Assembly (NCBI GenBank): GCA_016209495.1
Contig: JACQVX010000242.1
Location: forward strand, 1 to 35,240
DNA from: Planctomycetota bacterium
Lineage (GTDB): Bacteria; Planctomycetota; JACQVX01
DNA length: 35,240 bases
Reading direction: 5' to 3'
The position numbers were made by a program, and so were the translations under genes. Below, one piece after another: positions 1 through 34,132 of the stretch. How positions within the stretch are numbered: the first letter of the stretch is position 1; every line of letters starts with the position of its first letter. The notes beneath the pieces are model-generated. The model searched no databases. It was given only the letters and a program-made list of their open reading frames with translations, and had not been told where the DNA came from.

Positions 1-3000
1 CCCGGGGCGGCGGTGGCGCTCACGTTGACGCTGAACTGCAGGGTCCGGGTGGCGCCACCCGGCACCTGGCTGACCGTGTCCGTGCGGCTGGAGATGAAGT
101 CCGCCGGGTTCGGCGTGAAGCCCAGGGCGGCCGCGGTGAGGTCGGCGGCAGCCTGGGCGGAATTCGTGGCCCGCACCTGGACCACGACGCCGGACTGGGC
201 CTGGCTCACGGTGAGGGGCGCCGCCACGACCTCCAGGGCGAGGGCGGGCGCCGTCTGGACGGTCCAGTCGTCCGTGGTCTCGGCTCCAGGGTTGGAGACG
301 TCCGCCCCGCTCACATCGTCGGTGGCCGTCACGGCGGCGTCGATCCCGTGCAGGCCCGTGGCGGCCAGCGCGGCCACGCTCACATCGAAGCTCAGGGTGC
401 GGCTCGTGCCTCCAGGCACCTGGGTGACGCTGTCCGTGCGCAGGGCGGTGAAGTCCGTGGCGAAGGGGCTGAAGAGCAGCGCCGCGTCGGAGACGTTGGC
501 GCCGGCGGCGATGGCCCCGTTGGTGGCCTCCACCTGGACGCCCACCCCCGTCTGGCCCCGGGTCACCAGGCCCTGGGAGGCCGTGACGCTGAGCACCAGG
601 CTCGCCCCGTTGAGGACGACCCAGCTCGACGTCGTGTCCGCGAAGAGCCGGGAGTAGTCCGCGCCCCCGTTGGCGTCGTCCGCGGTGACGGAGGCGTCGA
701 TGGTGTTGGGGACCGTGGCCGCGCCCAGGTTCACGTTGACGCTGAAGCTGAGCGTGGCGTTCCCGAGGCCCGCCACCTGGGTCACCGTGTCCGTGCGGGT
801 CGAGGTGAAGTCGGTGGAGTTGGGCGCGAAGGCCAGGGCCGCGGCGGTGATGTCGGCGGCGGCCGTCCCGGCATTGGCCACCGCCACCGTCACCACCGAG
901 CCCGTCTGTCCGCGGGTGACGGAGGCCGGGGAGGAGACGGCCAGACTCAGGTCCGGGACGCTCTGGACGGTCCAGGTGTCCTTGGTGCTCGCCGTGAGGA
1001 GCGAGGCGTCCTCGTTGCTGTTGGCGTCGCTGGCGATCACGCTCCCGTCCAGGGTGACCACGGCGATGGTGGCGGAGAGGTTCACGTTCACGTTGAAGCT
1101 CAGGGTGACGCCCGCGCCGCCGCCCGTCACCTGGGTGAGGGTGTCCGTCCGCGTCGAGCTGAAGTCCCCGGGGACGGGGGTGAAGGCGAGGGCAGCCAGG
1201 GCAAGATTGGCGGCCGCCTGCCCGGCGTTGACCAGCCGGGCGCTCACCGCCACGCCGGTCTGACCCCTGGTCACGGTGGTGGTGGCGGCCAGGACCTCCA
1301 GGGTGAGGGCCGGCGGGCTCTGGACCAGGACCGTGTCCAGGTTGTCGGCGTTCGCCTTGGAGACGTCGGCCCCGCTGTTGGCGTCGTCCGCCGTCACCGC
1401 GGCGTCCACGGTGCTGGTGATCAGGGCCGCGGTGCCCGACACCAGCACGTTGAAGATCAGGTCCCTCGACCCGCCGCCGCCGGGCACCTGGGTCACCAGG
1501 TCGGTGCGGGTGGCCGTGAAGTCCGTCCCGGCGGGGCTGAACGAGATGGCCCCTCCGGTGATGTCCGCGGCGGCCCCGCCCAGGTTGTCCACCTTCACCT
1601 TGAAGAAGCCGTTGACCTGGCCCTGGGTGACCGTGGCCGGGGCGAGGACCGTCACCACCAGGACCGGCGCCGACTGGACGACCCAGGTGTCCTTGGTGTC
1701 GGCGTTCGCCCTGGAGACGTTGACCCCGCTCACGTCGTCCGTGGCCCCGCAGGAGGCGTCCACGGTCTGGGTCCCCAGGGCCGCCAGGGCGTTGACGTCC
1801 ACCGTGAAGGCGAAGCTGTTGGTGGCCCCGCCCGCCACCTGGGTGACCGTGTCGGTGCGGGCCACGGTGAAGTCCGCGGGGCTCGTGATGGCCAGGTTCG
1901 CGGCGGAGATGTTCGCCGCGGCCTGGCCCACGTTCTGGACCCGCACCGTCACGCCTACCCCGGTCTGGCCGCGGGAGACGGTCCCCGTGCTCGCCACCAC
2001 CTCCAGGGTGAGGGCCGCCTCCTGGAGGACGGTCCATACGTCCGTGGTGTCCGCGGCGGGACGCGAGGCGTCCATGCCGCCGTTGGCGTCGTCGGCGCTC
2101 ACCGAGGCGTCGATGGTGCGCACCCCCAGGCTGGCCGACGTGGAGACGTTGACGCTGAAGTCCAGGGTGGCGCTCCCCAGGCCCGCAATCTGGGTTACGG
2201 TGTCGGTCCGGAGGGCCGTGAACTCGGTGGCCCCGGGACTGAAGGCCAGGGCGGCGCCGGTGAGGTCCGCCGCCGCCTGTCCGCCGTTGTACACCTGCAG
2301 GCTCACCGGGATCCCAGGCTGGCCGCGGGTGACGGTGGTGGGGGTCGCCAGGACGGTGAGCACCAGGGCCGGCGGGCTCTGGACGGTCCAGGCGTCCGTG
2401 GTGCCGGCGGTGGGCTGGGAGGCGTCCACCCCGGTGTTGAGGTCGCTGGCGGTGACGCTGGCGTCCACGGTGTTCAGGCCCAGGGTGGCGGTGGTGGAGA
2501 CGTTGACGGTGAAGTTCAGGTTCGCGCTGGAGCCGCTCAGGACCTGGGAGATGGTGTCCGTGCGCAGGGCGAAGTAGTCCGGCGGATTGGGCAGGAGCAC
2601 CAGCGCCGCCCCGGTGATCTCGGCCGTGGCCCCTCCCGTGTTGAACACGGTCACGGTCACCGGCGCCCCGGTCTGGCCCCGGGTCACCAGGGTGGGCCCG
2701 GCGAAGACCTGCATGCTCAGCGCGGGCGGGTCCTGGACCTCCCACGAGTCCGAGGTGTCCGCCGTGGGTCTGGAGACGTCGCCGCCGCTCACCACATCCG
2801 TGGCGGTGATGCCGGCGTCCACCGTGTGGAAGCCCAGCCCGGCCGCCCCGTTCACGTCCACGGAGAAGGTGAGGTTCCGGGTCCCCGCCGCCGGGACGTT
2901 GGTCACGCCGTCGGTCCGGGCGGAGGTGAAGTCCGCCGGGGTGGGAGTGAAGACCAGGACCGCATTGCCGATGTTCGCGTCCGAGTCGCCCACGTTGTCC

Positions 3001-6000
3001 ACCTGCACCGTGACCGCGGCGGCGGACTGGCCGCGGGTGACCTTGGTCGGGGCGAAGACCGCCACCACCAGGGTGGCCCCGGCCTTGACCTGGAAGGTGT
3101 CCTGGGTGTCCGCCGTGAGGCGGGAGACGTCCAGGCCGCTGTTCGCGTCGTCCGCCGTCACCATCCCGTCCACCGTCTCGATGCCCAGGGTCGCCGTGGC
3201 CGACACGTTGACGCCGAAGCTGAGGGTCACGTTCCCGAGGCCCCCCACCTGGGTCAGGGTGTCGGTGCGGGAGGCCGTGAACTGGGTCGGGTTGGCCGTG
3301 AAGGCCAGCCCCGCGGAGGTGATGTCCGCCGCCGCCGTCCCCGAGTTCGACACGGTGATGAAGAGGGGCGTGTTGGTCTGGCCCTGGCCCACCGCCGACG
3401 GGGCCAGGACGGCGGTGGTGAGGGAGGGCGGGCTCTGGACCGCGACCGTGTCCAGCGTGTCGGCGTTCGGCCGGGAGACGTCCTGGCCGCTGTTCGGGTC
3501 CGCCGCGGTCACGGACGCGTCGATGGTGCTCACCGCCAGGGTCGCCGCGGCGTTGACGTTCATGCTGAAGCTCAGGGTGGCCGACGAGGCCCCGCCCACC
3601 TGGGTCACTGTATCGGTCCTGGTCAGGGTGAAGTCCGTGGCGTTGGGGGTGAACGCCAGGGCCGCGCCGGAGATGGTCGCCAGGGCGGTGCCGGCGTTCG
3701 TCACCTGCACCAGGACCGGGACGGCAATCTGGCCCTGGGTCACCGTGGCCTGGGCCAGCACGACCGCCACCGCGAGGGTAGGCAGGGACTGCACGGTCCA
3801 GGTGTCCTTCGTGGCGGCCGCCAGGGCGGAGACGTCCTGCCCGCTGTTCGTGTCCGTGGCGCTCACGGAGGCGTCCACCGTGTGGGCGCCCAGGTTCGCG
3901 GCGGCCCCCACGGTCACGGTGAAGGCCAGGTTCACCGTGCCGCCGCCCACCACCTGGGTGATGCTGTCGGTCCGGACGTCCAGGAAGTCCGCGGGGAAGG
4001 GCGCGAAGTAGAGGTCCGCCGCCCCGAGGATGGCCGTGGCCCCGCCGGCGTTGACCACCCGCAGGCCGACCCCCACCCCGGTCTGGCCCTGGGTCACGGC
4101 CACGGGCCCGGCCTGAACCTCGAGGGCGAGGCTGGGCAGGCTCTGCACCACCCAGACGTCGGTCGTGTCCGCGGCGGCCCTGGAGGCGTCGTAGCCCGAG
4201 TTGGCGTCGGTGGCCGTCACGGCGGCGTCCAGGGTGTGGAAGCCGGTCGTGGCCGCCAGGTCCACCGCCACCTGGAAGTTCAACGTCCGCGTGGCGCCGC
4301 CCGCCACCTGGGCCACCGTGTCGGTCCGGGTCGCGGTGAACTGGGTGGTCCCGGGGGTGAACAGCAGGGCAGCCGCCGCCAGGTTGGCCGCCGCGGTGCC
4401 GCCGTTGGCCACCCTCAGGTCCACCGGGAGCCCGGTCTGGCCCTGGGTCACCGTGCTCGCCGCCGCCAGGACCTCCAGGGTGAGGGCCGGCGGGCTCTGG
4501 ACGGTCCAGACGTCCGTCGTCGCCGCAGAGGCCGCCGAGGCGTCGTAGCCCGAGTTGGCGTCGTCGGCCGTCACCGCCGCGTCCAGGGTCACCGGCCCCA
4601 GCGCGGCCGCGGCGCCCACGTCCACGCCGAAGCTCAGGGTCAGGGCCCCCAGGCCGGGGACCTGGCTCCCGGTGTCGGTGCGGGCCGCGGTGAAGTCCGT
4701 GGCGCCGGGCGCGAAGGCGAGGAGCGCGGCGGTGAGGTCCGCCGCCGCCTGGCCCGCGTTGGCGGCGCGCACGTCCACCGCCACGGACGACTGGCCGCGG
4801 GAGACCGTGAGGGCCGCCGACAGGACCTCCAGGGAGAGGGAGGGCGGGGTCTGGACGGTCCAGGCGTCGCGGGTGTCCGCGGTGGCCCTGGAGGCGTCGG
4901 CGCCGCTGTTGGCGTCGTCGGAGGTCACCGCCGCGTCGATGGTGTTCGAGGCCAGCACCGCAGTGGCCTTCACGTCCACCAGGAAGCTCAGGGTCGCCGA
5001 CTCGCTCCCGGGGACCTGGACCAGGGTGTCCGTGCGGGTGGCCGTGAAGTCCCCGCCGTTCGTGAAGCTCAGGGCCGCCCCGGTGAGGTCCGCCGCCGCC
5101 GTCCCGGCGTTGGACAGGTTCACCGTCACGGGGATGGCCGATTGTCCGCGGGTCACCAGGGCCAGGGCCGCGACCACCTCCAGGGTGAGGCCGGGCGCCG
5201 ACTGCACGGTCCAGGCGTCCTTCGTATTGGCCGTGGCGAGGGAGACGTCCGCCCCGGTGTTGGCGTCGCTGGCGGTCACGGCGGCGTCGATGGTGGTGGA
5301 CACCAGGGCCGCGAGGGCGTTCACGTCCACCACGAAGGCCAGGTTCTGGGTCCCGCCGCCCGCCACCTGGCTCACCGTGTCGGAGCGCAGGGCGGTGAAA
5401 GCCGTCGCGTTCGGGGTGAAGGAGAGGGCCGCCGCCGCCAGGTTCGCCGCCGCGGTCCCGTTGTTCGTCACCTGCACCGTGACGGGGACGTTGAGCTGCC
5501 CCTGGCTCACGGTGCTCGCCGCCAGGACCGCCGCCTGGAGCGCGGCCGCGCTCTGGACCGTCCAGACGGCCTTCGTGTCCGCCGTGGCCCTGGAGACGTC
5601 GGCCCCGCTGTTGGCGTCGTCGGCCGTCACCGCGGCGTCCACCGTCACCGGCCCCAGGGCAGCGGCCGCGGACACGTCCACGGTGTAGACCAGGGTGGAG
5701 GTCCCCACGCCCGGGAGCTGGGTCAGGGTGTCCGTGCGGGTGGCGGTGAAGTCGCCCACCGCGGAGAAGGCCAGGGCGTCCCCCGTGAGGTCGGCGGCGG
5801 CGGTCCCCGCGTTGGACACCCGGACCGTCACGGGCACCGTCGTCTGGGCCTGGGTCACCGTGGCCGGGGCCACCACCTCCAGGGTCAGGGCCGGCGCGGA
5901 CTGGACCGTCAGGGCGCCTGTGGTGTCGGCCGCGAGCCGCGAGGCGTCGTAGCCCGAGTTGGCGTCGTCCGCGGTCACCGCCGCGTCCACGGTCACGGTC

Positions 6001-12000: not shown

Positions 12001-15000
12001 GAGGCGGCAGCCCCCACGGAGACATCGAAACTCAGGGTGAGCGTGGCGCCGCCCGCCGCCTGGGTCGCCGTGTCCGTGCGCGTCGCGGTGAAGTCGCCCG
12101 GGACCGGCGTGAACGAGAGGGTCACCGCCGCGAGGTCGGCCGCCGCCTGGCCCCCGTTCGCCAGGGTCACGAGGACGCCGATGCCCGTCTGGGCCCGACT
12201 CACGGTGGCGGGGGCGATGACCGTGGCGGCGAGCGACGGCGGGGTCTGCACCGTCCAGGCGTCCTTCGTCCCCGCCGTGGCGAGGGAGACGTCGTAGCCC
12301 GAGTTCGCGTCCGCGGCGCTCACGCTGGCGTCGATGGTGTTCGCCGCGGCGACGGCGGTAGTGGAGACGTTCACCTGGAAGCTCAGGGTCTGGGCGGCGC
12401 CGCCGGCGATCTGGGTCACCGTGTCGGTGCGGGTGACCGTGAAGTCGGCGGCGTTCGTGAAGGCGAGCGAGGCCCCGGTCAGGCCGGCCGCCGCCTGGCC
12501 GGCGTTCGTCAGGACGGCCGTCACCGGCACGGCGGTCTGGCCGCGCGAGACCAGCGTGGCCGCCGCCGAGACCGCGAGGCTCAGCGTCGCGGGGGTCTGG
12601 ACCGTCCAGGCGTCCTGCGTGTCCGCGGTGAGCCGGGAGACGTCCAGACCGTTGTTGGCATCGTCGGCGGTCACCGTGGCGTCGATGGTGTTCGCCGCGG
12701 CGACGGCGACCCCGCTCACGTTGACGCTGAAGCTCAGGGTCCGGCTGGCCCCGCCGGGGACCTGGGTCACGGCGTCGGTGCGGGTCGCAAGGAAGTCGGG
12801 GCCGTTGGGGGTGAAGACCAGGGCGGCGGCCGTGAGGTCCGCGGCCGCGAGCCCGGAGTTGACCACCACGACCGAGACGGGGACCGCCGTCTGGCCCTGG
12901 CTCACCAGGTTGGCGAGGGCGGAGACCAGCGTGGTGAGGGCCGGCGCGGTCTGCACGGACCAGGAACCCGTGGTATCCGCGTTCGGCCGGGAGGCGTCGT
13001 AGCCGCTATTGGCGTCGTCCGCCGTCACCGCGGCGTTGATGGTGTGGAAGCCCAGGGTCGCCGCCGCCGCCACGTCCACGGTGAAGCCCAGGTTGGCGAC
13101 CCCGCCGCCGCCCGCCACCCCCGTCAGGGTGTCGGTGCGCAGGGCGGTGAAGTCCGTGGCCACGGGCGTGAAGGCGAGGGCGGCCCCCGTGATGTCGCCG
13201 GCCGCCGCCCCGCCGTTCGTCACGCGCAGGGTCACCGCCACACCTGTCTGGCCCTGGGTCACCGAGGTCTGGGAGGGGAGGACCTGGAGCGTCAGGTCCG
13301 GCGGGTCCTGGACGGTCCAGGTCCCCTTGGTGTTCGCCGTCGAGCGCGAGACGTCCACCCCGCTGTTGGAGTCGTCGGCCGTCACCGCGGCGTCGATGGT
13401 GGAGAGCCCCAGGGGAGCGGAGACGGCCACGTCCACGTCGAAGGCGAGGGTGACGGCGCCGGCGCCGGGGACCAGGGTGAGGGTGTCGGTGCGGGTGGCG
13501 GTGTAGGCGGTGGCCGAGGGGCTGAAGGAGAGTGCGGCGCCCGAGAGGTCCGCCGCGGCCAGGCCCGCGTTCTGCACCTCCACCGAAACCGCCACCCCGG
13601 ACTGGCCCTGGCTCACCAGGGAGCGGGAGGGGATCACGTTCAGCTCGAGGATGGCGGGGCTCACCACCGTCCAGGCGTCCTGGGTAGCGGCCGTGGCCAC
13701 CGAGGCGTCCAGGCCGGAGTTGGCGTCCGTGGCGCCGGCGCCGGCGTCGATGGTGTGGGAGCCCAGGGTCGCGGCGGCGCCCACGGCCACCGTGAAGCTG
13801 AAGGTGACGCTGCCGCCGCCCGGCACCTGGGTGACGGTGTCCGTCCGCGTGGAAGTGAAGTCCAGCGCGCCCGGGGTGAAGTTCAGGCTGGACCCGGTGA
13901 TGGTGGCGGTGGCGGTGCCGGCGTTGGTGGCCACCACGCTCACGGCCACGGCGCTCTGGCCCTGGGTCACGGTGGCGGCCGGGGCGGCCACCTGGAGGGC
14001 CAGGACCGGCGGGCTCTGGACGGTCCAGGAGTCCCTGGTGTTCGCGGTGGCCAGGGAGGCGTCGGTCCCGCTGTTGGCGTCGTCCGCCGTCACCGCCGCG
14101 TCCAGGGTGGTCCCCCCCAGGGCGGCGGCGAGGTTCACGTCCACGGCGAAGGCGAGGCTCCGGGTGGCCCCGCCGGCCACCTGGGTCACCGCGTCGGTGC
14201 GCGTGGCGGTGAAATCCGTGGCCACGGGGCTGAAGAGGAGCGCCGCGGCCGTCAGGTCCGCCGCCGCCTGGCCGCCGTTGGCGACCTCGACCGTGACGCT
14301 CACCAGGGTCTGGCCCCGGCTCACGGTGAGCGGGCTCGCCACGACGCGGGCCGTGAGCGAGGGGGCCGTCTGCACCGTCCAGACGTCCTTCGTCGCCGCG
14401 GCCGCCACCGAGGCGTCGGCGCCCGAGTTGGCGTCATCGGCGGTGACGGAGGCGTCCACCGTCTGGGACCCCAGGGTCGCGAAGGCCGCCACGTCCACGG
14501 TGAAGCTCAGGGTCCGGCTCCCCAGGCCGGCCACCTGGGTCTCCGTGTCCGTGCGGCTGGCGGTGAACTCGCCGGGATTCGTGAAGGACAGGGCCGCGCC
14601 GGTGAGGTCGCCCGCGGCCTGGCCCGCGTTCGCCACCTGGAGGGCCACCACCACCCCGGTCTGGCCGCGGGTCACGAGCGAGGGCGCCAGGACCGTCAGG
14701 TTCAGGGCGGGCGGGGTCTGGACGGTCCAGGTGTCCTTCGTGAGGGCCGTCCCCACGGAGGCGTCCACCCCGGTGTCGGCGTCGTCCGCCGTCACCGCGG
14801 CGTCGATGGTGGCCAGGCCCGCCGGGGCGGCGGCCGCCACGTCCACGCCGAAGGCCAGCGTGACGGTCCCGCCCCCCGTCACCTGGGTCACCGTATCCGT
14901 GCGCGTGGCGGTGAAGGCCGTGGCCGCGGGGCTGAAGGCCAGGGCGGCCCCGGTGATGTCGGCGGCCGCCAGGGCCGCGTTGGTCAACTCCACCGACACC

Positions 15001-18000
15001 GCCACCCCGGACTGGCCCCGGCTCACCAGGGTCGGGACGGCGACGACGTTGAGGCGGAGATCCGGCGGACTATTGACGTTCCAGACGTCCTTCGTGGTGG
15101 CCGTGAACTGGGACTCGTCCAGGCCGGTGTTGGCGTCGTCCGCGGTCACCGAGGCGTCCACCGTCGTGGACCCCAGGGCCGCGGCCGGGGCGACGTTCAC
15201 GTTGAAGCTCAGCGTCGCGCTCCCGTTGGTCGCCACCTGGGTCACCGTGTCGGTGCGCGTCGTGGCGTAGTCCGCCGGGTTGGCGAAGACCAGGGCCGCC
15301 CCGGTGAGGTCCGCGGCGGCCGCGGAGACGCCCGGGTTGTCCACGCGCACGAGCACCAAGACCCCGGCCTGGCCCCGGGTGACGGTGGCGGGGGCCAGGA
15401 CCTCGGTCACGAGGGCGGGCGGGTCCTGGACGAGCAAGAGGTCCGTGGTGTCCGCGCTCGCCCTGGAGGCGTCCGCGCCGGTGTTGGCGTCGTCGGCCGT
15501 CACCGCCGCGTCCGCCGTGTGGAAGCCCAGGGGGGCGAGGGCGTCCACGTCCACGAGGAAGGCGAGGGTGGCCCCGCCGCCCCCCGCGACCTGGGTGACC
15601 GCGTCGGTCCGGGTGGCGGTGAAGGCGGTGGCCGTGGGGCTGAAGGCCAGGGCCGCGGCCGTGAGGTCCGCCGCCGCCGTCCCGCCGTTGGCCACCGCCA
15701 CCGTCAGGGCCACGGCCGATTGGCCGCGGGACACGGTGGCCGGTGCCGCCACCGCCAGGGTGAGGGCGGGGGCGCTCTGGACGGTGACCACGGCCCGCGT
15801 GTCGGCGGTGAGCCGGGAGGCGTCGTAGCCCGAGTTGGTGTCCGTGGCCGTGACCGAGGCGTCCACGGTGTTGGGACCCAGGGCCGCCGCCAAGGCCACG
15901 TCCACGCTGAAGCTGAGCGTGGCGCCGCCCAGGCCCGCCACCGCCGTCACCGTGTCCGTGCGGCTTGCCGTGAAGTCGCCCGGGTTGGTGAAGGCCAGGG
16001 CCGCCGCCGAGAGGCTCGCCGCCGCCGTCCCGGCGTTGGCCACCTCCACCGTCACACCCAGGGCCGTCTGGCCCTGCGTCACGGTGGGCTGGGCGGCGAG
16101 CACCCGGAGCGTGAGCGCCGGGGCGCTCTGGACCGTCCATGCGTCCTTCGTCCCCGCCGCCGCCAGGGAGGCGTCGTAGCCCGAGTTGGCGTCGTCCGCA
16201 GTCAGGCTGGCGTCCAGGGTCGCCGACCCCAGGGTGGCGGCGGGGGCCACGTCTACCGAGAAGCTCAGGGTCACGGTGGCGAGCCCGCCCACCTGGGTCA
16301 CGGTGTCCGTGCGGGTGGAGGCGAAGTCGCCCGGGACGGGGCTCATGGCCAGCGCCGCGGCCGTGAGGTCGGCGGCGGCCGCGCCGGCGTTGGCGACCCG
16401 CAGGCTCACCGGCACGGCGCTCTGGCCCCGGCTCACCAGGGTGGCGGCGGCGAGCACCTCGGCCGAGAGGACCGGGGCGTCCTGCACGGTCCAGGCGTCC
16501 GTCGTGTCCGCCGCGAGCCGGGAGGCGTCGGCCCCGGTATTGACGTCCGAGGCCGTGACCGCGGCGTCCAGGGTGTGCGCCGCCAGGGCCGCGGCGGCGG
16601 AGACGTCCACGTTGAAGCTCAGGGTCGCCGTGGAGAGGCCCGCCACCTGCGTCACGGTGTCTCCGCGGGTCGCTGTGAACTCGGTCGCTCCGGGGCTGAA
16701 CGAGAGGGCGGCGGCGGCCAGGCTGGCCGGGGAGGCGCCCAGGTTCTGCACCTCCACCGAGACGGGGATGGCGGACTGGGCCCGGGTCACGGTGGAGGCC
16801 GCCGCGGAGACGACGAGCCGCAGATCGGCGAAGGTCTGCACGGTCCAGGCGTCGGCGGTGGCGGCGGAGGCCACGGAGACGTCCGCCCCGTCGTTGAGAT
16901 CCGTGGCGGTGGCCGCCGCGTCGATGGTGTGGGCCCCGGTGGCGGCGGCCAGGTCCACGGCCACCTGGAAGCTCAGGGTCGCCGACCCCAGACCGGCGAG
17001 CTGGGTCAGGGTGTCGGTGCGGGTCGCGGTGAACTGGGTCGCCCCGGGGCTGAAGGAGAGCCCGGCGGCGGCTAGGTTGGCCGTGGCCGTCCCGCCATTG
17101 GCCAGCCGCACGCCCACCGCGACCCCGGTCTGGCCCCGGGTGACCACGGTGGCGGCGGCCAGGACCTCCAGGCTCAGGGCGGGGCGGCTCTGCACCGTCC
17201 AGGCGTCCTTGGTCCCCGCGGATGCCAGGGAGACGTCGGCCCCGGTGTTGGCGTCGTCGGCGCTCACCGCCGCGTCGATGGTGCTCGCCCCCAGGGTCGC
17301 GGCGGCGCTCACGTCCACGAGGAAGTCCAGGCTTCCGCTCGCGCCGCCCAGGATCTGGGTCAGGGTGTCGGTCCGGGTGGAGGTGAAGTCCCCGCCCACG
17401 GTGAATCCCAGGGCCGCCCCGGTGAGGTCCGCCGCCGCCCCGCCCACGTTGTCCACCTGCACGGTCACCGGGATCCCGGTCTGGCCGCGGGACACGGTGA
17501 GCGCCGCGGCCAGGACCCGCGCCTGGATCTGGGCCGCGAGCTGGACGGTCCAGGTGTCCTTGGTGCTGGCGGTGGCGACCGAGATGTCGTAGCCCGAGTT
17601 GGAGTCGTCGGCCGTCACTGCGGCGTCCAGGGTGGCGGCGCCCGGGGCGGCCGTCGGGGCCACCGTCACGCTGAAGGTCAGGCTGGCGCTCGCGCCGCCG
17701 GTCACCTGGGTCACCGAGTCGGTGCGGGCCACCAGGTAATCCGCGGGGCTCGTGAGGGAGAGCAGGGCCCCGGTCAGACCGGCGGCGGCGGCGCCCGTGT
17801 TGACGACCCGCACCTGGACCGCGACCCCGGTCTGGGCCTGGGTCACGGTGGCGGGGGCCAGGACCTCCGTCGTGAGGGCCGCCGGGACCTGGACGGTCCA
17901 GAGATCCGCGGTGTCGGCGTTCGCGCGGGAGATGTCGGCCCCGCTGTTGGCGTCCGAGGCGGTGAGCGCGGCATCGACGGTATAGAAGCCCACCCCCGTG

Positions 18001-24000: not shown

Positions 24001-27000
24001 ACGTCCACCGCGAAACTCAGGGTCCGGGTCGCTCCCCCCGGCACCTGGGCCACCGTGTCGGTGCGGGTGCGGATGAAATCGGCCTGGTTGGGGCTGACGC
24101 TGAGAGAGGCGCCGGTGAGGTCCGCCGCCGCCGTCCCGCTGTTGGCCACGGTGACGGTGACCGAGACCCCGCTCTGGGCCTGGGAGACCAGCGGCGGGGC
24201 GAAGACGCCCAGGACCAGGGCGGGCGGGCTCTGGACCGTCCAGGTGGCGGTGACGTCCGCCGCGGCCCTGGAGACATCGGCCCCGGAATTGGCGTCCCAG
24301 GCCGTGACGGACGCGTCGATGGTGACGACGCCGAGGGGGGCCGTGGCCGAGGCGTCCACCAGGAAGTTCAGGTCCCCGCTGCCCCCGCCGGCCACCTGGG
24401 TCACGGGGTCGATCCGGGTGACGGTGTAGGTCCCCGCGGGTGCGCTGAAGGAGAGGGTCGCGCCGCCGATGGTGGCCGCCGCCTGGCCGACGTTGTCCAC
24501 GGTGGCCGTCACGGGTCGGGCCGTCTGGCCCTGGGTGAGGGTCACCACGGTGGTCGTGACGGTCAAGGTGAGGAGCGGGGGCCCCTGGACGGTCCAGGTG
24601 TCGGTGGTGTCGGCGGCCGCCTTGTCGGCGCCGGCCCCGGTGTTGGCGTCCGTCGCCGAGAGGGACGCGTCCACGGTGGCCGTCCCGAAGGGGGCGCTGG
24701 CGGAGACCGCCACGTAGAAGCTCAGGGTGACGGTGGCGCCGATCGCCACCTGGGCCGCGGTGTCGGCACGGGTGGCGGTGTAGCTCGCCGCGCCGGGGCT
24801 GATGGCCAGGGCGGCCGCGGAGAGGTTCGCCGCGGCCGCCGTGGGGGCATTCTGCACCGTGACCGATACGGCGGTCGCCGTCTGGCCCCGGGTCACCGAG
24901 GGCGGCGCCAGGACGGCCACCGCCAGGGAGGGCGGGGTCTGGACCGTCCACGTGGCCTTGGTATCGGCGGTGGACCGGGAGGCGTCCGCGCCGCTGTTGG
25001 CGTCGCTGGCCGTCACGGCGGCGTCCACGGTGACGACCCCGGTGGCGGCACCGGTGCTCACCGCCACGGAGAAGGAGAGGACGGCCGTGGCCCCGCCAGT
25101 CACCTGGCCCACGGTGTCGGTGCGCGTGGCCGTGAAATCCGCGCTCGCCGTGAACGAGAGGGTGGCCGTGCCCACGTTCGCCGCCGCCTCGCCGGTGTTG
25201 GTCGCCTGCACCGTGACCGCCGCGGCGGACTGGCCCCGGCTGACGGTGGCCGGGCCCTGGACCGTGAGCTGGAGCCCCGCGGGGGCCTGGACCGTCCACG
25301 TGTCTGTCACGTCCGCCGTGTTCTCGGAGACGGCCGCGCCGCTGTTCGCGTCGGTGCCGGCCAGGCTGGCGTCGATGGTCCGCAGACCGCTCGGGGCGGC
25401 AGCCGAGACGTTCACCGAGTAGCTCAGGGTGACGGTGGCCCCGGAGACCACCTGGGTCGCGGCGTCCGTGCGGGTCGCCGTGAAGTCCGCCGCCGCGCCG
25501 CCGAAGCTCAGGGCCGCCGAGGCCAGGTTGAGGGGCGAGGCATCCGCCTCGTTCGACACCTCCACGGCCACGCCCACCAGGCTCTGTCCCCGGCTCACGA
25601 GGGTCGGGGTCGCTCGCACCACGACCGTGAGGGTCGGGGCCCTGAGCACGGTCCAGGCGTCGGTGGTCTGTGCGGAGGAGCGGGACGCGTCGGCCCCGCT
25701 GTTGACGTCGCGCGCGGTCACGGCGGCGTCCACCGTGTGGGTCCCCAGCGTGGCGTTCCCGTTGACGCCCACGCTGAAGACCAGCGTCACCGTGGCGCCC
25801 CCCGCCACCTGCGCGGTCGTGTCGGTCCGGGTCGCCGCGAAGTCCGCGGCGCCGGGGCTGAACTTCAGAGCGGCCGCGGTGAGGTCCGCCACGGCCTGGC
25901 CCGCGTTGGAGCACGCCACGCTCACGGAGACCCCGACCTGCCCCTGTGAGACGGTGTTGGTGGCCAGGACCACGCGCAGGGCCAAGGAGGGGACAGACTG
26001 CACGGTCCAGGTGTCCTTGACGCCGGCGGAGGCCAGGGAGGCATCGGCCCCGGTGTTGGCGTCGGTGGCGGACAGCGAGGCGTCGATGGTGGCGACCCCC
26101 AGGGCGGCGGCGGAGGCGACGGCCACGCTGAAGGAGAGGCTGGCGCTGGCCCCGCTCCCCACCTGCGCCACCGTATCGGTGCGCGTGGCGGTGTAGTCCG
26201 AGGCCACGGGGCTGAAGGCCAGGGTCGCGGCGTGCAGGTTCGCCGGGGCCCCTGTCGCCCCGTTCACCACCAGGACCGTCACCGGGACCAGGGTCTGGCC
26301 GCGGCTCACCAGGGTGGGGGCCGCGAGGACCGAGAGGCTCAGGACGGGGGGGGCGTTGACCGCCCAGGTGTCGCGGGTGTCGGCGCTGGACCGGGAGGCA
26401 TCGGCCCCGGTGTTGGCATCGCTGGCGGTGACGGAGGCGTCCAGGGTATAGGTCCCGGTGGCCACGCCGAGCGCCACGTCCACCTGGAAGGCCAGCAGGG
26501 CCGTGGCCCCGCCGGCCACCTGGGCGATGGCGTCGGTCCGGGCCACGGTGTAGCTCGATGCGGAGGGGCTCAAGGAGAGGCCCGCCCCCGTCAGGGTGGC
26601 CGTGGCGGTCCCGGTGTTCTGGACCCGGAGCGCCACCGCCGCCCCGGTCTGGCCGCGGGTCACGGTGGCGGGCGCCTCGACGGTGAGCTGCAGGACCGGC
26701 GGGCTCTGGACCACCCAGGAGTCGTCCGCGTCCGCCGCGGCCCTGGAGACGTTGGCCCCGCTGATCACGTCCGAGGCCGTGACGGCGGCGTCGACCCTCT
26801 GCGTCCCGAGGGTGGCGGTCGACGCCACGCCCACGGTAAAGCTCAGGGCGCCCACCTGGCCTGCCTCCACCCGCGTGACCGTGTCGGTCCGCGTCACGGC
26901 GTAGTCGGCGGCCTGGGCGAAGACCAGGGCGGCCCCCGTGAGGTTCGCCCCCACGGTGCCCGTGTTCTGCACGAGCACGTTCACCGCGATGCCCGCCTGC

Positions 27001-28120
27001 CCCCGGGACACGGTGGCGGGGGCCGTGCTCACGGTGAGCGAGAGGACGGGCGCGGCCGAGACGACCCAGGAGGACGCGAAGTCCGCGCGGGCCTTCGAGG
27101 CGTCCGCCCCGGAGTTCTGGTCCTTGGCGGACACGGTCGCGTCCACGGCCACCGTCCCCAGGCCGGCGGTGGCGCCCACGGTGACGACGAAGCTCAGGTT
27201 CGCGCTCCCCCCGGCGGCAAGCTGCAGGATGCCGTCGGTCCTTGCCACCGTGTAGTCGGCGGGGACCGGGAATACCAGGGCGGCCGAGGAGAGGCTCGCG
27301 GTGGCGCCCCCGGTGTTGTCCACCTTGAGGGTCACGGACACGCCGGTCTGGCCGCGCATCACCTTGGAGGGGGAGATGACCGTGACCAGGAGCTGGGGGG
27401 CGGCCTGCACGGTCCAGGTGTCCGGCGTGTCCGCCTGGGACTTCGAGAAGTCGCCGCCGGTCCGGACGTCCCTCGCGGTGATGCGGGCGTGCAGGGTGGC
27501 GCTCCCGGGGGAGGCGAAGGACTTGACGTCCACGGTGAAGGCGAGCGTCACCGTGGCCGCCGCCTCGACCCGCGTCACCGTGTCCGTGCGGGTCACGACG
27601 TAGTCCCCGGTCCGGGCGAATACCAGCCCGGCGTCCTGGATCTCCGCCGCCTCGGTGCCGCTGTTGGCGACCGTGACGGTCACGGGGAGGCCCTTCTGGC
27701 CCTGGGTCACCTGGGTGGGGGGGGTGCTGACGGCGACCGCGAGGATGGGACCGCCCCGGATGTTCCAGGTGTCGGTCTGGCGGGCCTTGTCGAGGGTCAG
27801 GATCTCGCCCGAGCTGGTGTCCACGGCGCTCAGCCGGGCGTCCACCGTGTGGACCCCCACGGCGGCGTTCCTGGAGACAAGGACGGAGAAGCTGAGGGTG
27901 ACCGACTGGGCGCGCTGGACCTGGGTCACCTGGTCCGTGCGCTCGACGGTGTAGTCGCCGGGGCGCTCGAAGACCAGGGAGGCGCTGGAGACGCTCGCGG
28001 CCGAGCCGCCGATGTTGACCAGGGTGACCCGGACCGTCACGTTGCCCTGGCCCTGGGCGACCTCGGTGGGCTCCGCGTCCACGCTCATCTCCAGCCGCGC
28101 CGGGCCGGAGATCAAGCCCT
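1..28120 (-). repeat. About 79 complete tandem units plus one partial, period about 352 bp (about 117 aa), divergent at the nucleotide level
   Basis: The linker 'D.WTVQ.AP' (plus strand: ctctggacggtccaggtgtcc and variants) was counted 79 times from about 264 to 27765, mean spacing about 352.6 bp. Approximate consensus unit: L.LTV...PT.VTQGQTGVPVTVTVRNTGTAAADLTGAALAFSPGATDFTATRTDTVTQVAGGATATLSFSVDVAAAATLGVHTIDAAVTADDANSGADVSRPNADTKDTWTVQSAP. Confidence 0.92.
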
Positions 28121-28220
28121 TGACGTCGAAGTTGCCACCCCCGCCACCCGCGTCGCAGCCTGCGATGGCCGCGGCGGTCATGGCGGAAACCGCGATGAGA
28201 AAACGGCGGGCGCCAGCCAC
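1..28220 (-). CDS. Giant tandem-repeat putative lipoprotein (CARDB/NEW3/DUF11-like beta-sandwich repeats), C-terminus truncated by the left window edge
   Basis: Reverse-complement reading with codons whose lowest plus coordinate is a multiple of 3 gives coherent protein at both ends and at points checked between. N-terminus: MAGARRFLIAVSAMTAAAIAGCDAGGGGGNFDVKGLISGPARLEMSVDAEPTEVAQGQGNVTVRVTLVNIGGSAASVSSASLVFERPGDYTVERTDQVTQVQRAQSVTLSFSVLVSRNAAVGVHTVDARLSAVDTSSGEILTLDKARQTDTWNI. The conserved linker Trp codon is in the same frame at 264, 621, 972, 1683, 6969, 14025, 22131 and 27765. No listed minus-strand ORF in 1-28,178 lies in this frame, consistent with an unbroken frame lacking a stop in the window. 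GTG start at 28220-28218 is preceded by GGGAG at SD-like spacing. Confidence 0.93.
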   Translation of the reverse strand, partial: MAGARRFLIAVSAMTAAAIAGCDAGGGGGNFDVKGLISGPARLEMSVDAEPTEVAQGQGNVTVRVTLVNIGGSAASVSSASLVFERPGDYTVERTDQVTQVQRAQSVTLSFSVLVSRNAAVGVHTVDARLSAVDTSSGEILTLDKARQTDTWNIRGGPILAVAVSTPPTQVTQGQKGLPVTVTVANSGTEAAEIQDAGLVFARTGDYVVTRTDTVTRVEAAATVTLAFTVDVKSFASPGSATLHARITARDVRTGGDFSKSQADTPDTWTVQAAPQLLVTVISPSKVMRGQTGVSVTLKVDNTGGATASLSSAALVFPVPADYTVARTDGILQLAAGGSANLSFVVTVGATAGLGTVAVDATVSAKDQNSGADASKARADFASSWVVSAAPVLSLTVSTAPATVSRGQAGIAVNVLVQNTGTVGANLTGAALVFAQAADYAVTRTDTVTRVEAGQVGALSFTVGVASTATLGTQRVDAAVTASDVISGANVSRAAADADDSWVVQSPPVLQLTVEAPATVTRGQTGAAVALRVQNTGTATATLTGAGLSLSPSASSYTVARTDAIAQVAGGATALLAFQVDVALGVATGTYTLDASVTASDANTGADASRSSADTRDTWAVNAPPVLSLSVLAAPTLVSRGQTLVPVTVLVVNGATGAPANLHAATLAFSPVASDYTATRTDTVAQVGSGASASLSFSVAVASAAALGVATIDASLSATDANTGADASLASAGVKDTWTVQSVPSLALRVVLATNTVSQGQVGVSVSVACSNAGQAVADLTAAALKFSPGAADFAATRTDTTAQVAGGATVTLVFSVGVNGNATLGTHTVDAAVTARDVNSGADASRSSAQTTDAWTVLRAPTLTVVVRATPTLVSRGQSLVGVAVEVSNEADASPLNLASAALSFGGAAADFTATRTDAATQVVSGATVTLSYSVNVSAAAPSGLRTIDASLAGTDANSGAAVSENTADVTDTWTVQAPAGLQLTVQGPATVSRGQSAAAVTVQATNTGEAAANVGTATLSFTASADFTATRTDTVGQVTGGATAVLSFSVAVSTGAATGVVTVDAAVTASDANSGADASRSTADTKATWTVQTPPSLAVAVLAPPSVTRGQTATAVSVTVQNAPTAAAANLSAAALAISPGAASYTATRADTAAQVAIGATVTLSFYVAVSASAPFGTATVDASLSATDANTGAGADKAAADTTDTWTVQGPPLLTLTVTTTVVTLTQGQTARPVTATVDNVGQAAATIGGATLSFSAPAGTYTVTRIDPVTQVAGGGSGDLNFLVDASATAPLGVVTIDASVTAWDANSGADVSRAAADVTATWTVQSPPALVLGVFAPPLVSQAQSGVSVTVTVANSGTAAADLTGASLSVSPNQADFIRTRTDTVAQVPGGATRTLSFAVDVGPAAVLGLKVLDAALTADDANTGLDVSVVTASTKDTWTVQASPFLAIVSITAPALVSRGQSAIPVVVRVDNTGGSAANVSSAALNISAPGDFALTRTDTVTQIASGASVSFTYSVDVLVGAALAPSNLNSVVTAVDANSGANASNGSGTLHTWTVQSPPVLSLSVSAPATVSQGQNDVAVSVAITNGGTAAANIGSAGLVLSPTASDFLVARTDTMTQLAGGASATLGFLVDVSAAAGAGFITLDASVTATDANSGYDRSRASADTTDIWTLQTPPALSLLVDAPPTAFRGQSGVPVSVKVTNEAGAAPANLTGAGLAFSPLASAFLPVRIDTVTQVGSGASVTLSFNVDVAPGAPIGTHTFDAGVTGADANSGAAVVKSAADTKDTLVVLNATQPSLRVLAGPTTVTRGQTGVLVSLETINEGIGTIDVLSAELRFTQNGEFTATRTDTVTQILGGATKSLSFLVDVSGGATLGVQTVDANVSAQDTFTGVDVSRFGAQTLDTWEVQSSASLKLLVLATPVTVSQGQNGVGVDVQAENVGSATATISGAALSFSPVPGDFTANRTDSQTTLAGGDFLTLSFVVNVNAAATTGLQVIDAAVSAVDANSGFDTSRANADTTDAWSVQTPAALNTTVTANPVTVSQSQAGVPVTVIVTNSGGASALLTAAVLQFTNPTDFAAARTDSITLVPGGTSASLLFSVGVTGTASPVVNVIDANVAASDVNSGANKSRPTADLTDIWTVQVAPSLSLEVIAAAPTVTQGQTGIPVTVRLVNGGGANADVTGASLALSNPADFTATRTDSVTLVTGGGGARTLSFTVDVNALAAQIANTIDAIVNADDSNSGADASRLAADTKDSWLVQGPPLLRLAVVALPLTVTRGQTGIAVTVETENPGAASADVTGAALLISAPGDFTATRTDTVTQIAGGVTASLSFSVSVSAAAVLGTVTLDAAVTADDANTGEDVSQTAAGTKDSWVVQTAPALTLEVLSPTATVTQGQVGASVSLRVVNSGQALAALGVASLGFSPVATDFTATRTDGIAQVAGGATQDLAFSVSVAGLASPGFTTVDAALAATDANTGADVSRTTADTILTWTVQTPPNLALRVVPSQSSVTQGQTSVGVTLVATNGGTAAATLSNARLAFSPGTAQFLATRTDTQTQVPGLGARSLSFSVDVSVVATPGVHTLDAAVTAQDANSGTDASRPTADTTGTWTVQQLPVLALAVLAAPATVSRGQSGVGVTVQVTNAGDAAADLTAAALAFSVGAASYTSTRTDTVTQVAGGGGSASLSFSVDVGAAATLGPVTIDAAITADDANTGQDVSVGAAATADAWTVQAPAALTLAVSAPAAVTQGQGAIPVQVVATNNVGAAADLAAAVLVLSTPADFTATRADTVTQVAGGTSATLSFNVAVAATATLGTVTLDSAVTADDANSGYDISRASADTTDAWAVQSGASLTLEVLAASTLVTQGQAGVPVTLRVTNTGTAAADLAAAALSFSPGATQFTAARTDAFTQVPGGTARSLAFTVDVDAAATLGFHTLDAAVTASDSNSGVDKSRASADTVDTWTVQSIASLTTEVLAGPLTVSRGQAAVPVSLRVTNAGGAAADLTGAALVYSPAPADFLSTRTDTLSQVAGGGATVTLAFSVNVAVTATLGSHTIDASVTADDANGGADVSRPNADTTDAWTVQSPPTLALAVLAAPTFVTRGQTAVAVSVQVANGGQAAADLTAAALSFSPGATQYTATRTDTLTQVAGASNATLTYTVDVDAAATLGTHTVDAAVTAQDANGGTDVSAASAATKDTWVVQIGASLFLTVLAPPTVSRGQPAVPVSLRVDNTGGAAANLAGVALAFTSAGDFTATRTDTATQVAGGASATLAFDVAVSSTAALAANTLDAAVTAVDASSNADVSRANADVPDAWTVLAGANLTLAVLAPATVSQGQSAVAVTLQVDNTGGAPALIAAAALAITPGATSFTASRTDTLTQLAGGMSANLGFLVDLAPATGVGFYTVDAALTASDANSGADISRANADTADLWTVQVPAALTTEVLAPATVTQAQTGVAVQVRVVNTGAAAAGLTGALLSLTSPADYLVARTDSVTQVTGGASASLTFSVTVAPTAAPGAATLDAAVTADDSNSGYDISVATASTKDTWTVQLAAQIQARVLAAALTVSRGQTGIPVTVQVDNVGGAAADLTGAALGFTVGGDFTSTRTDTLTQILGGASGSLDFLVDVSAAATLGASTIDAAVSADDANTGADVSLASAGTKDAWTVQSRPALSLEVLAAATVVTRGQTGVAVGVRLANGGTATANLAAAGLSFSPGATQFTATRTDTLTQLAGLGSATLSFQVAVDLAAATGAHTIDAAATATDLNDGADVSVASAATADAWTVQTFADLRLVVSAAASTVTRAQSAIPVSVEVQNLGASPASLAAAALSFSPGATEFTATRGDTVTQVAGLSTATLSFNVDVSAAAALAAHTLDAAVTASDVNTGADASRLAADTTDAWTVQDAPVLSAEVLAAATLVSRGQSAVPVSLRVANAGAAAADLTAAALAMSPVPGDFASTRTDTVTQVGGLATVTLSFSVDVAPAATLGSATLDASLTADDANSGYDASLAAAGTKDAWTVQSAPALTLRVLAAQPTVTQGQTALGVTVEVANAGTAAASLSAAALAFTNPGDFTASRTDTVTAVAGLGGATLSFSVDVALAAALGPNTVDASVTATDTNSGYDASRLTADTRAVVTVQSAPALTLAVAAPATVSRGQSAVALTVAVANGGTAAADLTAAALAFSPTATAFTATRTDAVTQVAGGGGATLAFLVDVDALAPLGFHTADAAVTADDANTGADASRASADTTDLLLVQDPPALVTEVLAPATVTRGQAGVLVLVRVDNPGVSAAAADLTGAALVFANPADYATTRTDTVTQVATNGSATLSFNVNVAPAAALGSTTVDASVTADDANTGLDESQFTATTKDVWNVNSPPDLRLNVVAVPTLVSRGQSGVAVSVELTNAALAAADITGAALAFSPAATAFTATRTDTVTQVTGGGTVTLAFGVDVAAAAPAGLATIDAAVTADDADTGVDASVGTALTKDTWTVQTPPALNLTVLAPSLVTRGQTGVVVALQVANAGQAAGDLTGAALSFTNPGEFTASRTDTETQVAGLGSRTLSFTVDVAAFATLGSQTVDASVTADDANSGADASVAAAATKDVWTVQTAPSLTARVVASPLTVSRGQTLVSVTVEVANGGQAAADLTAAALLFSPVATDFTATRTDAVTQVAGGATRSLAFAVDVNLAAALGGTTLDAAVTADDANSGTDASLATANTRDSWTVQSPPVLALQVAAPAATVTQGQSAVAVSVVATNAGTATATITGSSLNFTPGALDFTSTRTDTVTQVPGGGSVTFSFTVAVGAAATLGSHTIDAGAGATDANSGLDASVATAATQDAWTVVSPAILELNVIPSRSLVSQGQSGVAVSVEVQNAGLAAADLSGAALSFSPSATAYTATRTDTLTLVPGAGAVTLAFDVDVAVSAPLGLSTIDAAVTADDSNSGVDVSRSTANTKGTWTVQDPPDLTLQVLPSQTSVTQGQTGVAVTLRVTNGGAAAGDITGAALAFTPVATDFTALRTDTLTGVAGGGGVANLGFTVDVAAAATLGFHTINAAVTADDANSGYDASRPNADTTGSWSVQTAPALTTLVSALANLVSQGQTAVPVSVVVVNSGLAAADLTAAALVFTPNGPDFLATRTDAVTQVPGGASRTLSFSVNVSGVAVAAANTIDATVTADDANNGLDVSRLTADTQDAWTVQTPATLSLAVSAAATLVSRGQTAVPVTAVLTNAGQAAAGLTGASLAFTNAADFTVTRTDTVTQIAGGAAQTLSFQVNVSTTAVAAANTIDASVSAADANSGYDVSLATAGTKDAWTVQTPPSLAATVIAPATVSRAQTGIGVLVTLANGGQAAADLAAVTLSFTPVPGDFTATRTDTATQAAGGATLTLSFDVSVGAAASLGFHTLNAGVTAADANSSAALTAADTEVWTVQSAAVLTVQVLPSQASVTRGQSAVGVAVRVTDGGTAAADLTGVALAFSPTPADYSATRTDTLSQIPGSATVTLQFSVDVALTATPGAATIDAGVTADDANSGADVSQATAGTKGVWTVQTAPALATAVIAAPATVSRGQGALAITVQVDNAGGAAADLTGATLGFSPGVTDFTASRTDTVTQVAGGGSANLDFTVSVAAGAALGATTLDASVTADDANTGLDASRLTADTKDAWTVQSPPVLTVAVLAQATVTQGQTGTPVQVQVTNAGTAAADLTGAALSFSPFAGDFTATRTDTLTQVPGAGGATLAFTVDVASAATLGAHTVDASVTADDANSGADASRPTADTRAVWTVQTAPALTLRVVAVAATVTQGQFSVPVTVEATNAGQAAAAVSAADLAFSPNATDFTVARTDTQTQVPGSSTRSLSFLVNVNVAAAAVANTLDAAVTATDANSGAGASVAAAATKDAWTVQTAPALTLRVVASQPLVSQGQTAVAVTVELLNPAGAAAADLTAAALAFSPAATAFTGTRTDAVTQVAGGGSATLVFAVDVAVAAATGAHTLDAAVTADDANTGADASRPTADTKATWTVQTPPSLALEVVASQPTVTRGQGAVPVTVRLTNVGSAAANLGGAALAFSPGAAEFTATRTDTVTQIAGPGTATLSFSVNVDAAATLGVQTLDASVSAADVNTGYDASRSTADTRATWTVQTPPSLTLRVAPSQGLVSRGQTAVLVRLEVSNGGTAAADLTGAALAFTVPADYTATRTDTETQVAGGVTRTVRFDVDVNAAATLGFQVIDAAVTSDDANSGADASRANADTTGAWTVQTPASLSSEVVASPALVTRGQTGVPVTVRVANAGQAAADLTAASLLFFVPPDYTFSRTDSVTQVPGGGTQSLSFTVTVSGAAGLGPTTVDAAVTADDGNSGTSVSLPGASTIDTWTVQSPPALSLEVSAALALVTQGQTGIPVDLRVTNAGTAAADLTAAALAFSPGATAFTATRTDTATTVAGGGALTLNFTVAVASAAALGVHTIDGAITADDANGGADASVAAAATVDSWTVQSPPSLTLEVVASQATVSRGQSAVGVTVRLANAGTSAADLTGAALAFSPGAGEFTASRTDTLTQVGSTTTVTLSFTVNVAAAATLGVQTIDAAVTADDANSGYDVSRATADTMAAWTVQSPPTLVLQVLAQPTFVSRGQSAVAVTLAVANGGTAGATIGTAALSFAPGATEFTATRTDAITSIAGSGAVSLLFSVDVGAAATTGFHTLDAALTATDANSGYDASRASADSTDTWTVQTPAALTTQVVVSQALVTRTQTGVPVYLRVTNGGEAAADLTAAALAFAPNPGDFVPTRTDTETQVAGGATRTLNFSVDVAGGAALATHTVDASVTADDSNTGYDVSLATATTQATWTVQTAPSLTLAVAAPATVSQGQSAIPVTVTVANVGQAAADLTGAALAFTNAPDFTAVRTDTQTQVAGLGSNTLAFTVTVSATAALAVNTLDAAVTADDANSGTDASRANADTVDTWLVQSPPVLTLAVDAAAGLVTQGQTGIPVTLRVANAGTAAADLTGAALAFSPGAAQFTATRTDTQTQVLGASSVTLSFTVAADAAATLGTHTVDGAVSADDANSGYDVSKASADTVDTWSVQSPPGLQVRVLTTPTLVTQAQSAVSVTAIVDNLGTAAANITGAALAFSPFATQFTATRLDPITQIAGGASGTLSFSVEVGAAATPGFHVIDAALTATDDNSGADVSRPNADTTDSWIVQTAPALTTEVLAGPASVTRGQSAIPVTVRVSNAGQAAADLTGAALAFSPAPADFISTRTDTFNQVPGGGTRNLSFDVTVAAIAGLGSHTIDAGVTADDANSGYDVSRPTADTKDAWTVQTAPALTLRVLPSQPTVTRGQAGVPVSVEVTNSGTAAADLTGAALSFTNPGDFTATRTDTLTQVPGGATSTLAFSVDVAALAALGTVTVDAAVTADDANSGYDASRLAADTTGALTVQSAPALTLEVVAPATVTQAQTTVPVTVRVSNAGTAAADLTGDALAFSAVGDFTATRTDTLTQLPGVGTSTLVYTVDVSAAAALGPVTVDAAVTADDANSGADVSRATADTKAVWTVQSAAALQAAVLAASTVSQGQLNVPVTVQVTNNGTAAANLAAAALSFTPNATAFTALRSDTVSQVAGGGTQNLAFVVDVNALAALVSTTIDAAVTASDANTGADVSLATANTKDAWTVQSAPGLTLEVVAALALVTRGQSAIPVTVNLSNAGTAAADLTGAALSFTNGGDFTATRTDTLVQVPGSESATLSFLVDVKATAVLASNTIDAAVTSDDANSGADASRATADTRDAWTVQTPPSLSLEVLSAALTVSRGQSSVAVDVRAANAGQAAADLTAALLAFAPGATDFTAARTDTGSQVPGLGALTLSFGVDVGAAAALGPVTLDAAVTADDANSGYDASAASAATTDVWTVQSPPALTLEVLAAASTVTQGQTGLPVDLRVANGGTAAANLAAAALLFTPGTTQFTATRTDTVAQVAGGATRTLNFQVAVDLAATTGFHTLDAAVTATDANSGYDASRAAADTTDVWVVQSLPSLALEVQAGPVAVTQGQTGVGVGLRVVNAGGATAILGAADLYFAPFPADFLDVRTDSITQVVGGGTVNLAFTVTVGAAANLGAHTVDASVSATDTNSGQDVSALAAATKDTWTVQSLPTLAVAVVLAQATVTQGQIAVPVLVQVTNAGTALATISGAALAFTPNATDFTLTRTDTVTQVGGASSATLSFSMNVNAAATLAVSTIDASVTAADPNSGQDVSRPNADTLDTVAVQSPPSLTTAVLAPSAVGQGQTNTPLFITVSNSGTAAADITSAGLAFTANPTQFTASRTDTLTQVGGLGNVTLSFGVNVSATATLGIETVDGMVTADDANSGLDVSRLTADTQDTFQVKAGATLVVAVFAPTKVTRGQSAAAVTVQVDNVGDSDANIGNAVLVFTPTPADFTSARTDGVTNVPAAGTRNLTFSVDVNGAAGLGFHTVDAGITATDVVSGGDVSRPTADTSDSWEVQDPPALSMQVFAGPTLVTRGQTGAPVTVTVFNTGGATAEITGAALVLLPNPPDYFALRTDTISQVLSGSSANLNFTVNVSTTATLGLNTVDASVTASDLNTGVDASQPTAGTTDAWTVQSPPALVLTVLATPTTVTRGQPGIPVSLQVYNGGQAAADLTGAALAFSPGATEFTALRTDTVTQIAGLGSATLDFSVNVSTSASLGVRTIDASVSADDANGGMDASRPAADTTDVWTVLQEAALTLEVVASTGTVSRGQTGVGVTVRVQNVGQAAANISAANLAITSPADFTVARTDTVTQVAGGATNSFAFTVDVNALAALGTQTVDASCGATDDVSGVNVSRANADTKDTWVVQSAPVLVVTVLAPATVTQGQVNGFFKVKVDNLGGAAADITGGAISFSPAGTDFTATRTDLVTQVPGGGGSRDLIFNVLVSGTAALITSTVDAAVTADDANSGADVSKANADNLDTVLVQSPPALTLEVLAATTTVTRGQTGVAVSARLVNAGQAAANLALAALAFTPVPGDFSSTRTDTLTQVTGGGAGVTLSFNVNVNLSATIAVVTLDGSVIASDANSNEDASLLTASTKDTWTVQSVPDLSLAVSSPASVTRGQTGSVVTVAVANAGTAAADITAAALAFAPNSTDFTSTRTDTVTQVAGLGNATLSFSVNVNLGAATVPNTIDASVTADDANGGADYSRLFADTTSSWVVLNGASLVLSVTASQGLVTRGQTGVGVQVEATNGAIAAGANVSDAALLFSPFATDFTALRTDSVTQVPGGTSRTLSFDVSVAALAATGLHGIDAAVTATDDVSGADVSNPGAETTDDWTVQTAPALALEVVAAPLTVSQAQSGVVVQVRATNSAQAAADLTAAALGFTPNPADFISSRTDTVSQVPGGATRTLQFSVNVSATAAP
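28155..28220 (-). other. Predicted lipoprotein (SPase II) signal peptide with lipobox IAG|C, Asp at +2, followed by a Gly-rich linker
   Basis: Minus-strand translation from GTG 28220: M-A-G-A-R-R-F-L-I-A-V-S-A-M-T-A-A-A-I-A-G-C-D-A-G-G-G-G-G. Short basic n-region (RR), hydrophobic h-region, and IAGC matching a lipobox. Confidence 0.8.
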
Positions 28221-28332
28221 TGGCGCTCCCGCCACGCGACCCCCCTGCACTCGAATCCCCCCCGTCCGGAGTGGGCTGGTCGCACCCCTCGACCTTGCCC
28301 TTTGGCGGGTCTCCAGACGATGACCCGTGGAA

Positions 28333-28361
28333 AACATACGATGGGACCGCTGGCCTGGCAA
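28333..28361 (-). promoter_or_regulatory. Candidate sigma70-like promoter for the giant repeat gene: TTGCCA-N17-TATGTT
   Basis: Reverse complement of tggcaa (28356-28361) and aacata (28333-28338), 17-nt spacer, about 105 nt upstream of the proposed GTG. Confidence 0.4.
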
Positions 28362-28369
28362 AGGGGCCC

Positions 28370-34123: not shown

Positions 34124-34132
34124 GAGGGCGGG

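Follow-up and report, generated by a model that had tools for sequence, protein, structure and literature searches.

An unbroken planctomycetal gene of 9,406 or more codons encodes a predicted lipoprotein built of tandem CARDB-type Ig-like units

RESULTS

An open-ended gene and its neighbours

The whole stretch of DNA analysed here, hereafter the window, measures 35,240 nt and coincides with the entire contig C219 of a metagenome assembly, G000 (4.08 Mb in 291 contigs, 86% complete). A variable piece of the host RpoB gave a single confirmed match (61% identity, Planctomycetota bacterium JAFGKN010000545), and the nearest relatives among the genomes searched could be placed at phylum level only; judged by these matches, the host is an outlier within the Planctomycetota.

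One minus-strand gene (3..28220, GTG start) runs uninterrupted over at least 9,406 codons of the contig and encodes a protein of about 0.9 MDa: the part present amounts to 919 kDa (pI 4.05) and the 3' end lies beyond the contig. The stop-free frame extends from 28385 to 3 (9,461 codons, the first upstream stop being at 28394), with 0 in-frame stops in the 9,406 codons between the GTG at 28220 and base 3. A preliminary description of this DNA had postulated a gene of at least ~9,400 codons in a single constant frame from about 28,220 to 1, of which about 0.9 MDa was visible with the C-terminus unreached, and these points hold. It had also ascribed the absence of the gene from the ORF list to its open end; indeed, the gene is listed at once when open ends are allowed. 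Its statement that the gene runs off the window is correct as regards the open end, but the extension to the left that it proposed cannot reach the C-terminus: the window being the whole contig, the 3' end is absent from the assembly and not merely from view.

The length of the frame far exceeds that expected by chance: 100 first-order Markov sequences of matched composition had maximal stop-free runs of 746 codons on average and of 1,522 at most. GC at codon positions 1, 2 and 3 of the giant frame is 0.67, 0.59 and 0.97; for comparison, 86 long ORFs taken from other parts of the host genome have a mean GC3 of 0.91. When the aligned repeat units described below are read in all six frames, the sense (minus) frame alone is stop-free and has the lowest pN/pS (0.79–0.80), although this figure carries little weight alone, since G/C saturates the third positions.

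The plus-strand frame of 5,690 codons (3..17075) is an antisense shadow and not a gene. It owes its openness to the scarcity of three sense codons among the 9,406: TTA is lacking, and CTA and TCA appear once each. Long and open as the plus-strand ORFs are, this codon bias explains their openness, and it is the minus frame that shows the coding pattern of codon-position GC, the Pfam matches and the near-perfect fold prediction; the probability that they are real genes is negligible, in keeping with what the preliminary description had held. ORF lists that omit open-ended frames may thus conceal a contig's principal gene and display its antisense instead.

The GTG at 28220 is most likely the start of the gene, as judged from sequence features. 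It is preferred because a Shine-Dalgarno-like GGGAG (28226..28230, minus strand) lies 5 nt upstream, because GC3 rises there from 0.64 to 0.87 and because the signal peptide begins at this codon: codon-position GC is flat over the 55 preceding codons (0.67/0.69/0.64) and takes a coding pattern over the 55 following ones (0.71/0.58/0.87). Farther upstream, an AT-rich divergent intergenic stretch (28330..28430, minus strand) with promoter-like sites on both strands separates the giant gene from an aldehyde dehydrogenase gene. Between 28150 and 28620, three sigma-70-like matches were found against 0.0 expected in shuffles; as consensus matches only, they are putative promoters.

The aldehyde dehydrogenase gene begins a plus-strand run of metabolic genes (28580-34846), divergent from the giant gene, which also includes genes for a membrane protein with a sub-threshold GPDPase_memb match, a zinc-type quinone oxidoreductase/ADH, an enoyl-CoA hydratase, a 3-hydroxyacyl-CoA dehydrogenase and a short-chain dehydrogenase. 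This run resembles a cluster for the degradation of fatty acids or acyl-CoA and seems unconnected with the giant gene.

A predicted lipoprotein signal

The first 22 residues of the giant protein, MAGARRFLIAVSAMTAAAIAGC, were read by eye as a lipoprotein signal peptide (MAGARRFLIAVSAMTAAAIAG followed by Cys22; 28155..28220, minus strand), with the codon for Cys22 at 28157-28155. The short lipoprotein signal, TAAAIAGC, ends in the lipobox IAGC (residues 19–22), which fits the pattern [LVI][ASTVI][GAS]C and is preceded, again by eye, by RR and a hydrophobic stretch. A Gly-rich linker, DAGGGGGNFDVKGLISG (28104..28154, minus strand), joins the presumed lipid anchor to the first repeat unit. Only 3 of the 9,406 residues are Cys, Cys22 among them. 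The host genome encodes both Lgt (PF01790, 191 bits) and the signal peptidase II LspA (PF01252, 124.7 bits). We predict that the giant protein is a lipoprotein with Cys22 as lipidation site.

The close repeat family is present in 2 of 392 Planctomycetota genomes, the host included. In the other one (G020), a short relative comprises LGAC, NKGGGGGGSS and two units, beyond which sequence resembling IPT, PPC and FG-GAP domains was recognized by eye. Lipobox, Gly linker and units follow one another as in the giant protein, which supports a lipid-anchored explanation. A single three-unit query of the genome contig collection gave 268 candidate stretches, none of which was confirmed; a profile built from 12 three-unit stretches contained no part of sufficient conservation to scan that collection.

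Eighty divergent units in tandem

Segmentation, Pfam (PF07705) and AlphaFold2 together delineate 80 tandem CARDB-type Ig-like units of 115–119 aa (3..28103, minus strand). The units run head-to-tail from 28103, unit 80 being truncated by the contig edge, and a period of about 118 aa persists over the entire giant frame. Pairwise amino acid identity of the 79 full units averages 0.53 (range 0.32–0.73). The first unit diverges most, sharing a mean identity of 0.38 with the other units, and the units close to the visible C-terminal end have a slightly lower identity.

Four residues, Gln19, Arg56, Asp58 and Asp96, are invariant in the 79 full units. The last of these opens an acidic loop, D96-x-N98-x-G100-x-D102, whose other positions are conserved in 70 (N98), 76 (G100) and 68 (D102) of the 79 units; this conservation suggests a putative, still conjectural, metal site.

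We considered whether the array could be chimeric, or the gene a decaying one whose translation has been lost: the sequence stems from a metagenome assembly, tandem arrays are known to cause assembly errors, and the contig breaks within the array. However, the DNA identity of the units averages 0.65 and does not exceed 0.81, and within the giant gene exact repeats reach 40 nt in a single case and 50 nt in none. With such divergence, ordinary short reads could place the units and assemble the array, so that, unlike that of identical-repeat arrays, its length is credible from short reads. A frame of 9,406 codons without stop, with a GC3 of 0.97 and the lowest pN/pS of all frames, also argues against decay. 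Artefact and decay are therefore both very improbable; by these sequence measures, the array is not an assembly artefact, and it is old.

Separately, units spaced by 4, 11 and 15 positions (252-28103, minus strand) show a small excess of identity (z of 3.8, 2.9 and 2.6, respectively), which hints at a trace of old multi-unit block duplications.

Family and fold of the units

Three stretches of the protein were scanned. The Pfam family CARDB (PF07705) passed its gathering cut-off (22.7 bits) in two of them, with 39.7 and 24.4 bits, the former a modest score for a match that spans 1,300 aa; it was not listed for the third (12003-15002). The NCBIfam model choice_anch_D (choice-of-anchor D) barely passed (45.2 bits versus 45). 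The scanned parts gave no Pfam or NCBIfam match to an enzyme, a dockerin, a cohesin or a carbohydrate-binding family.

AlphaFold2, run on input alignments derived from the window only, modelled a single unit with a pLDDT of 98.6 and three units in tandem with a pLDDT of 97.6. The modelled unit is a seven- to eight-stranded Ig-like beta-sandwich. A structure search of the PDB returned the CARDB domain of PF1109 (3idu; E 2.6e-3, TM 0.57/0.60, 0.60 by target) and many Ig-like domains, including those of adhesins, cohesins and sialidases; with moderate TM-scores (0.5–0.7), these matches indicate the fold and not the function. A sequence search of the PDB with a 26-row unit alignment found no relative. 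The models thus predict with high confidence that every unit is an Ig-like beta-sandwich. The secreted beta-rich repeat protein of the preliminary description is in this way refined to a predicted lipoprotein with predicted CARDB repeats.

Note that the three-domain model also gave fold matches to ciliary ASH/MSP-like proteins and to integrins, which we rejected as generic Ig-like folds that do not reflect homology.

Candidate C-terminal ends

Beyond C219, only two contigs of the host genome contain the repeat family, C78 and C5, and either may carry the C-terminal end, or head, of the giant protein. The frame in C78 (1-5631, plus strand) has no 5' end: it opens inside a unit and continues for 1,877 aa to a stop, with two units, then Big_1 and Big_5 domains and a long orphan C-terminal region. 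Across 391 other Planctomycetota genomes, this tail matched Ig-like domains only, and nothing over its full length. The frame in C5 (5195-1563, minus strand), likewise devoid of a 5' end, opens inside a unit and reaches its stop after 1,211 aa; after one further unit it has a pair of He_PIG domains and a Kelch propeller. No RTX family was reported in either contig.

GC3 is 0.96 in C5, 0.80 in C78 and 0.97 in the array, a composition that favours C5 over C78 as the C-terminus of the giant gene but is only suggestive. Neither contig could be linked to C219: no 22-mers are shared near the contig ends, only three are shared within the repeats, and the best matches of the C5 and C78 units are scattered over the array. 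If one of the two were the end, the protein would comprise about 10,600 to 11,300 aa, plus the content of the gap.

As for the surroundings of these frames, an ISAZ013-type transposase comes after that of C78, a contig whose GC (0.66) and GC3 (0.80) are low for the host genome and which may have been acquired or misbinned. A short frame with a lipobox-like LLLSGC start comes after that of C5.

DISCUSSION

A proposed lipid-anchored stalk and its alternatives

We propose, with a probability of roughly 0.6, that the visible sequence is the 5' part of a gene whose product is exported, anchored by a lipid and fibrous, forming an envelope stalk that presents a binding head. The protein would be exported by Sec and then lipidated on Cys22, Lgt and LspA both being encoded. 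Folding in series, the units would form an unbranched acidic stalk, 0.3–0.4 micrometres long if straight: 80 units at about 4.75 nm per domain give about 0.38 µm, the rise per domain being borrowed from a tetra-tandemer of the adhesin MpAFP (190 Å per four domains; PMC4083281), from which this fold may differ. The stalk would serve as a spacer holding the C-terminal head off the membrane, and the head would bind polymers or other cells, or adhere.

Foremost among the alternatives, though itself unlikely, is an extracellular scaffold or biofilm matrix protein whose array would bind polysaccharide or calcium along its length, the lipid merely tethering it. The strong acidity of the protein (net charge of about -408, pI 4.05) and the near-invariant D96-x-N98-x-G100-x-D102 loop as a possible metal site are consistent with such a role; however, the metal site is conjectured from conservation, and the scanned parts lack enzyme, dockerin, cohesin and carbohydrate-binding families.

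Ranking after the scaffold, and a shade more doubtful, is a periplasmic tether, i.e. a lipoprotein that remains attached to the inner membrane and bridges the periplasm or scaffolds it, its length serving envelope architecture and not adhesion. The residue following Cys22 is Asp. In Escherichia coli, an Asp directly after the lipid-bearing Cys is an inner-membrane retention signal. LolA was not found in the host genome, which is 86% complete, and together with the Asp this means that we can only infer surface exposure of the giant protein. Yet the +2 rule is not established for Planctomycetota, the genome is incomplete, and the other host lipoproteins sampled (n = 4, one with Asp) are too few to judge sorting. 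In favour of a tether, the planctomycete Fuerstia marisgermanicae is described as having an enlarged periplasm (PMC5177795), but 80 straight units would be many times longer than an ordinary periplasm. Less probable again is a specific version of this idea, a giant lipid-anchored tether or ruler whose length, set by the at least 80 Ig-like units, would organise or span an enlarged planctomycetal periplasm.

Whether stalk, scaffold or tether, the protein raises the questions of why a 4-Mb genome devotes at least 28 kb to one lipoprotein, and of how a chain of about 1 MDa is exported and folded.

Comparison with known systems

The likeness to the CARDB family (PF07705; PF1109, 3idu) lies in a score above the curated cut-off and in the predicted fold; what differs is the presence of 80 copies in one chain, with modest scores. 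CARDB in general occurs in 98 of the 392 Planctomycetota genomes, and giant CARDB-containing frames were found elsewhere in the phylum (10,951, 8,640, 6,233 and 6,008 aa, the second and third open). These share phylum, size class and CARDB matches with the giant gene but differ in architecture: the 10,951-aa frame has a LEPRLLL motif at its start and cadherin-like repeats near its end, the 6,008-aa frame a protease-like stretch at its start, and two others dockerin-like repeats at their ends. No lipobox was seen in the termini read. By sequence, they are of the same size class but are not the same protein. The 10,951-aa frame is complete (32.9 kb; G219:C58 66001-118168, minus strand).

In the host genome itself, another locus (G000:C58:16000-22206) encodes a lipobox protein (GMAGCNSGS) with Kelch-like repeats recognized by eye and, in a separate open-ended frame of 766 aa, Pro/Thr linkers, CARDB-type units and a glycoside-hydrolase-like tail.

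Giant genes have been defined by Reva and Tummler as exceeding 5 kb, a definition used in PMC5177795; the gene described here measures 28.2 kb without its end. Planctomycetota are described as unusually well endowed with giant genes, with a maximum of 36,239 bp in F. marisgermanicae, and their products are suspected surface proteins (PMC5177795); longer giants are reported in Omnitrophota (PMC12057145). The planctomycetal giant genes resemble ours in phylum and as single genes of tens of kb, but PMC5177795 describes no homogeneous CARDB array, and our gene is still incomplete at 28.2 kb. Among the papers of the library searched for giant or tandem CARDB proteins, no counterpart of an 80-unit array behind a lipobox was found.

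The RTX adhesin MpAFP, with about 120 tandem Ig-like domains of ~104 aa forming an extender of ~0.6 µm (PMC4083281), is likewise a tandem Ig-like extender of MDa size. MpAFP has identical repeats, type I secretion and an RTX C-terminus, whereas the repeats here are 53% identical and follow a lipoprotein signal; RTX/type I adhesins have an N-terminal retention domain and no Sec signal, and the N-terminus here is a Sec-type lipoprotein signal. By analogy with giant Ig-like adhesins, the array likely acts as an extender for a binding head, a lipid anchor replacing type I secretion.

The giant gene is thus an exceptionally regular and well-assembled example from a poorly sampled branch of the Planctomycetota: giant size alone is already known in the phylum, and the distinctive trait is that 80 CARDB units, divergent as they are, form one homogeneous array after a lipobox.
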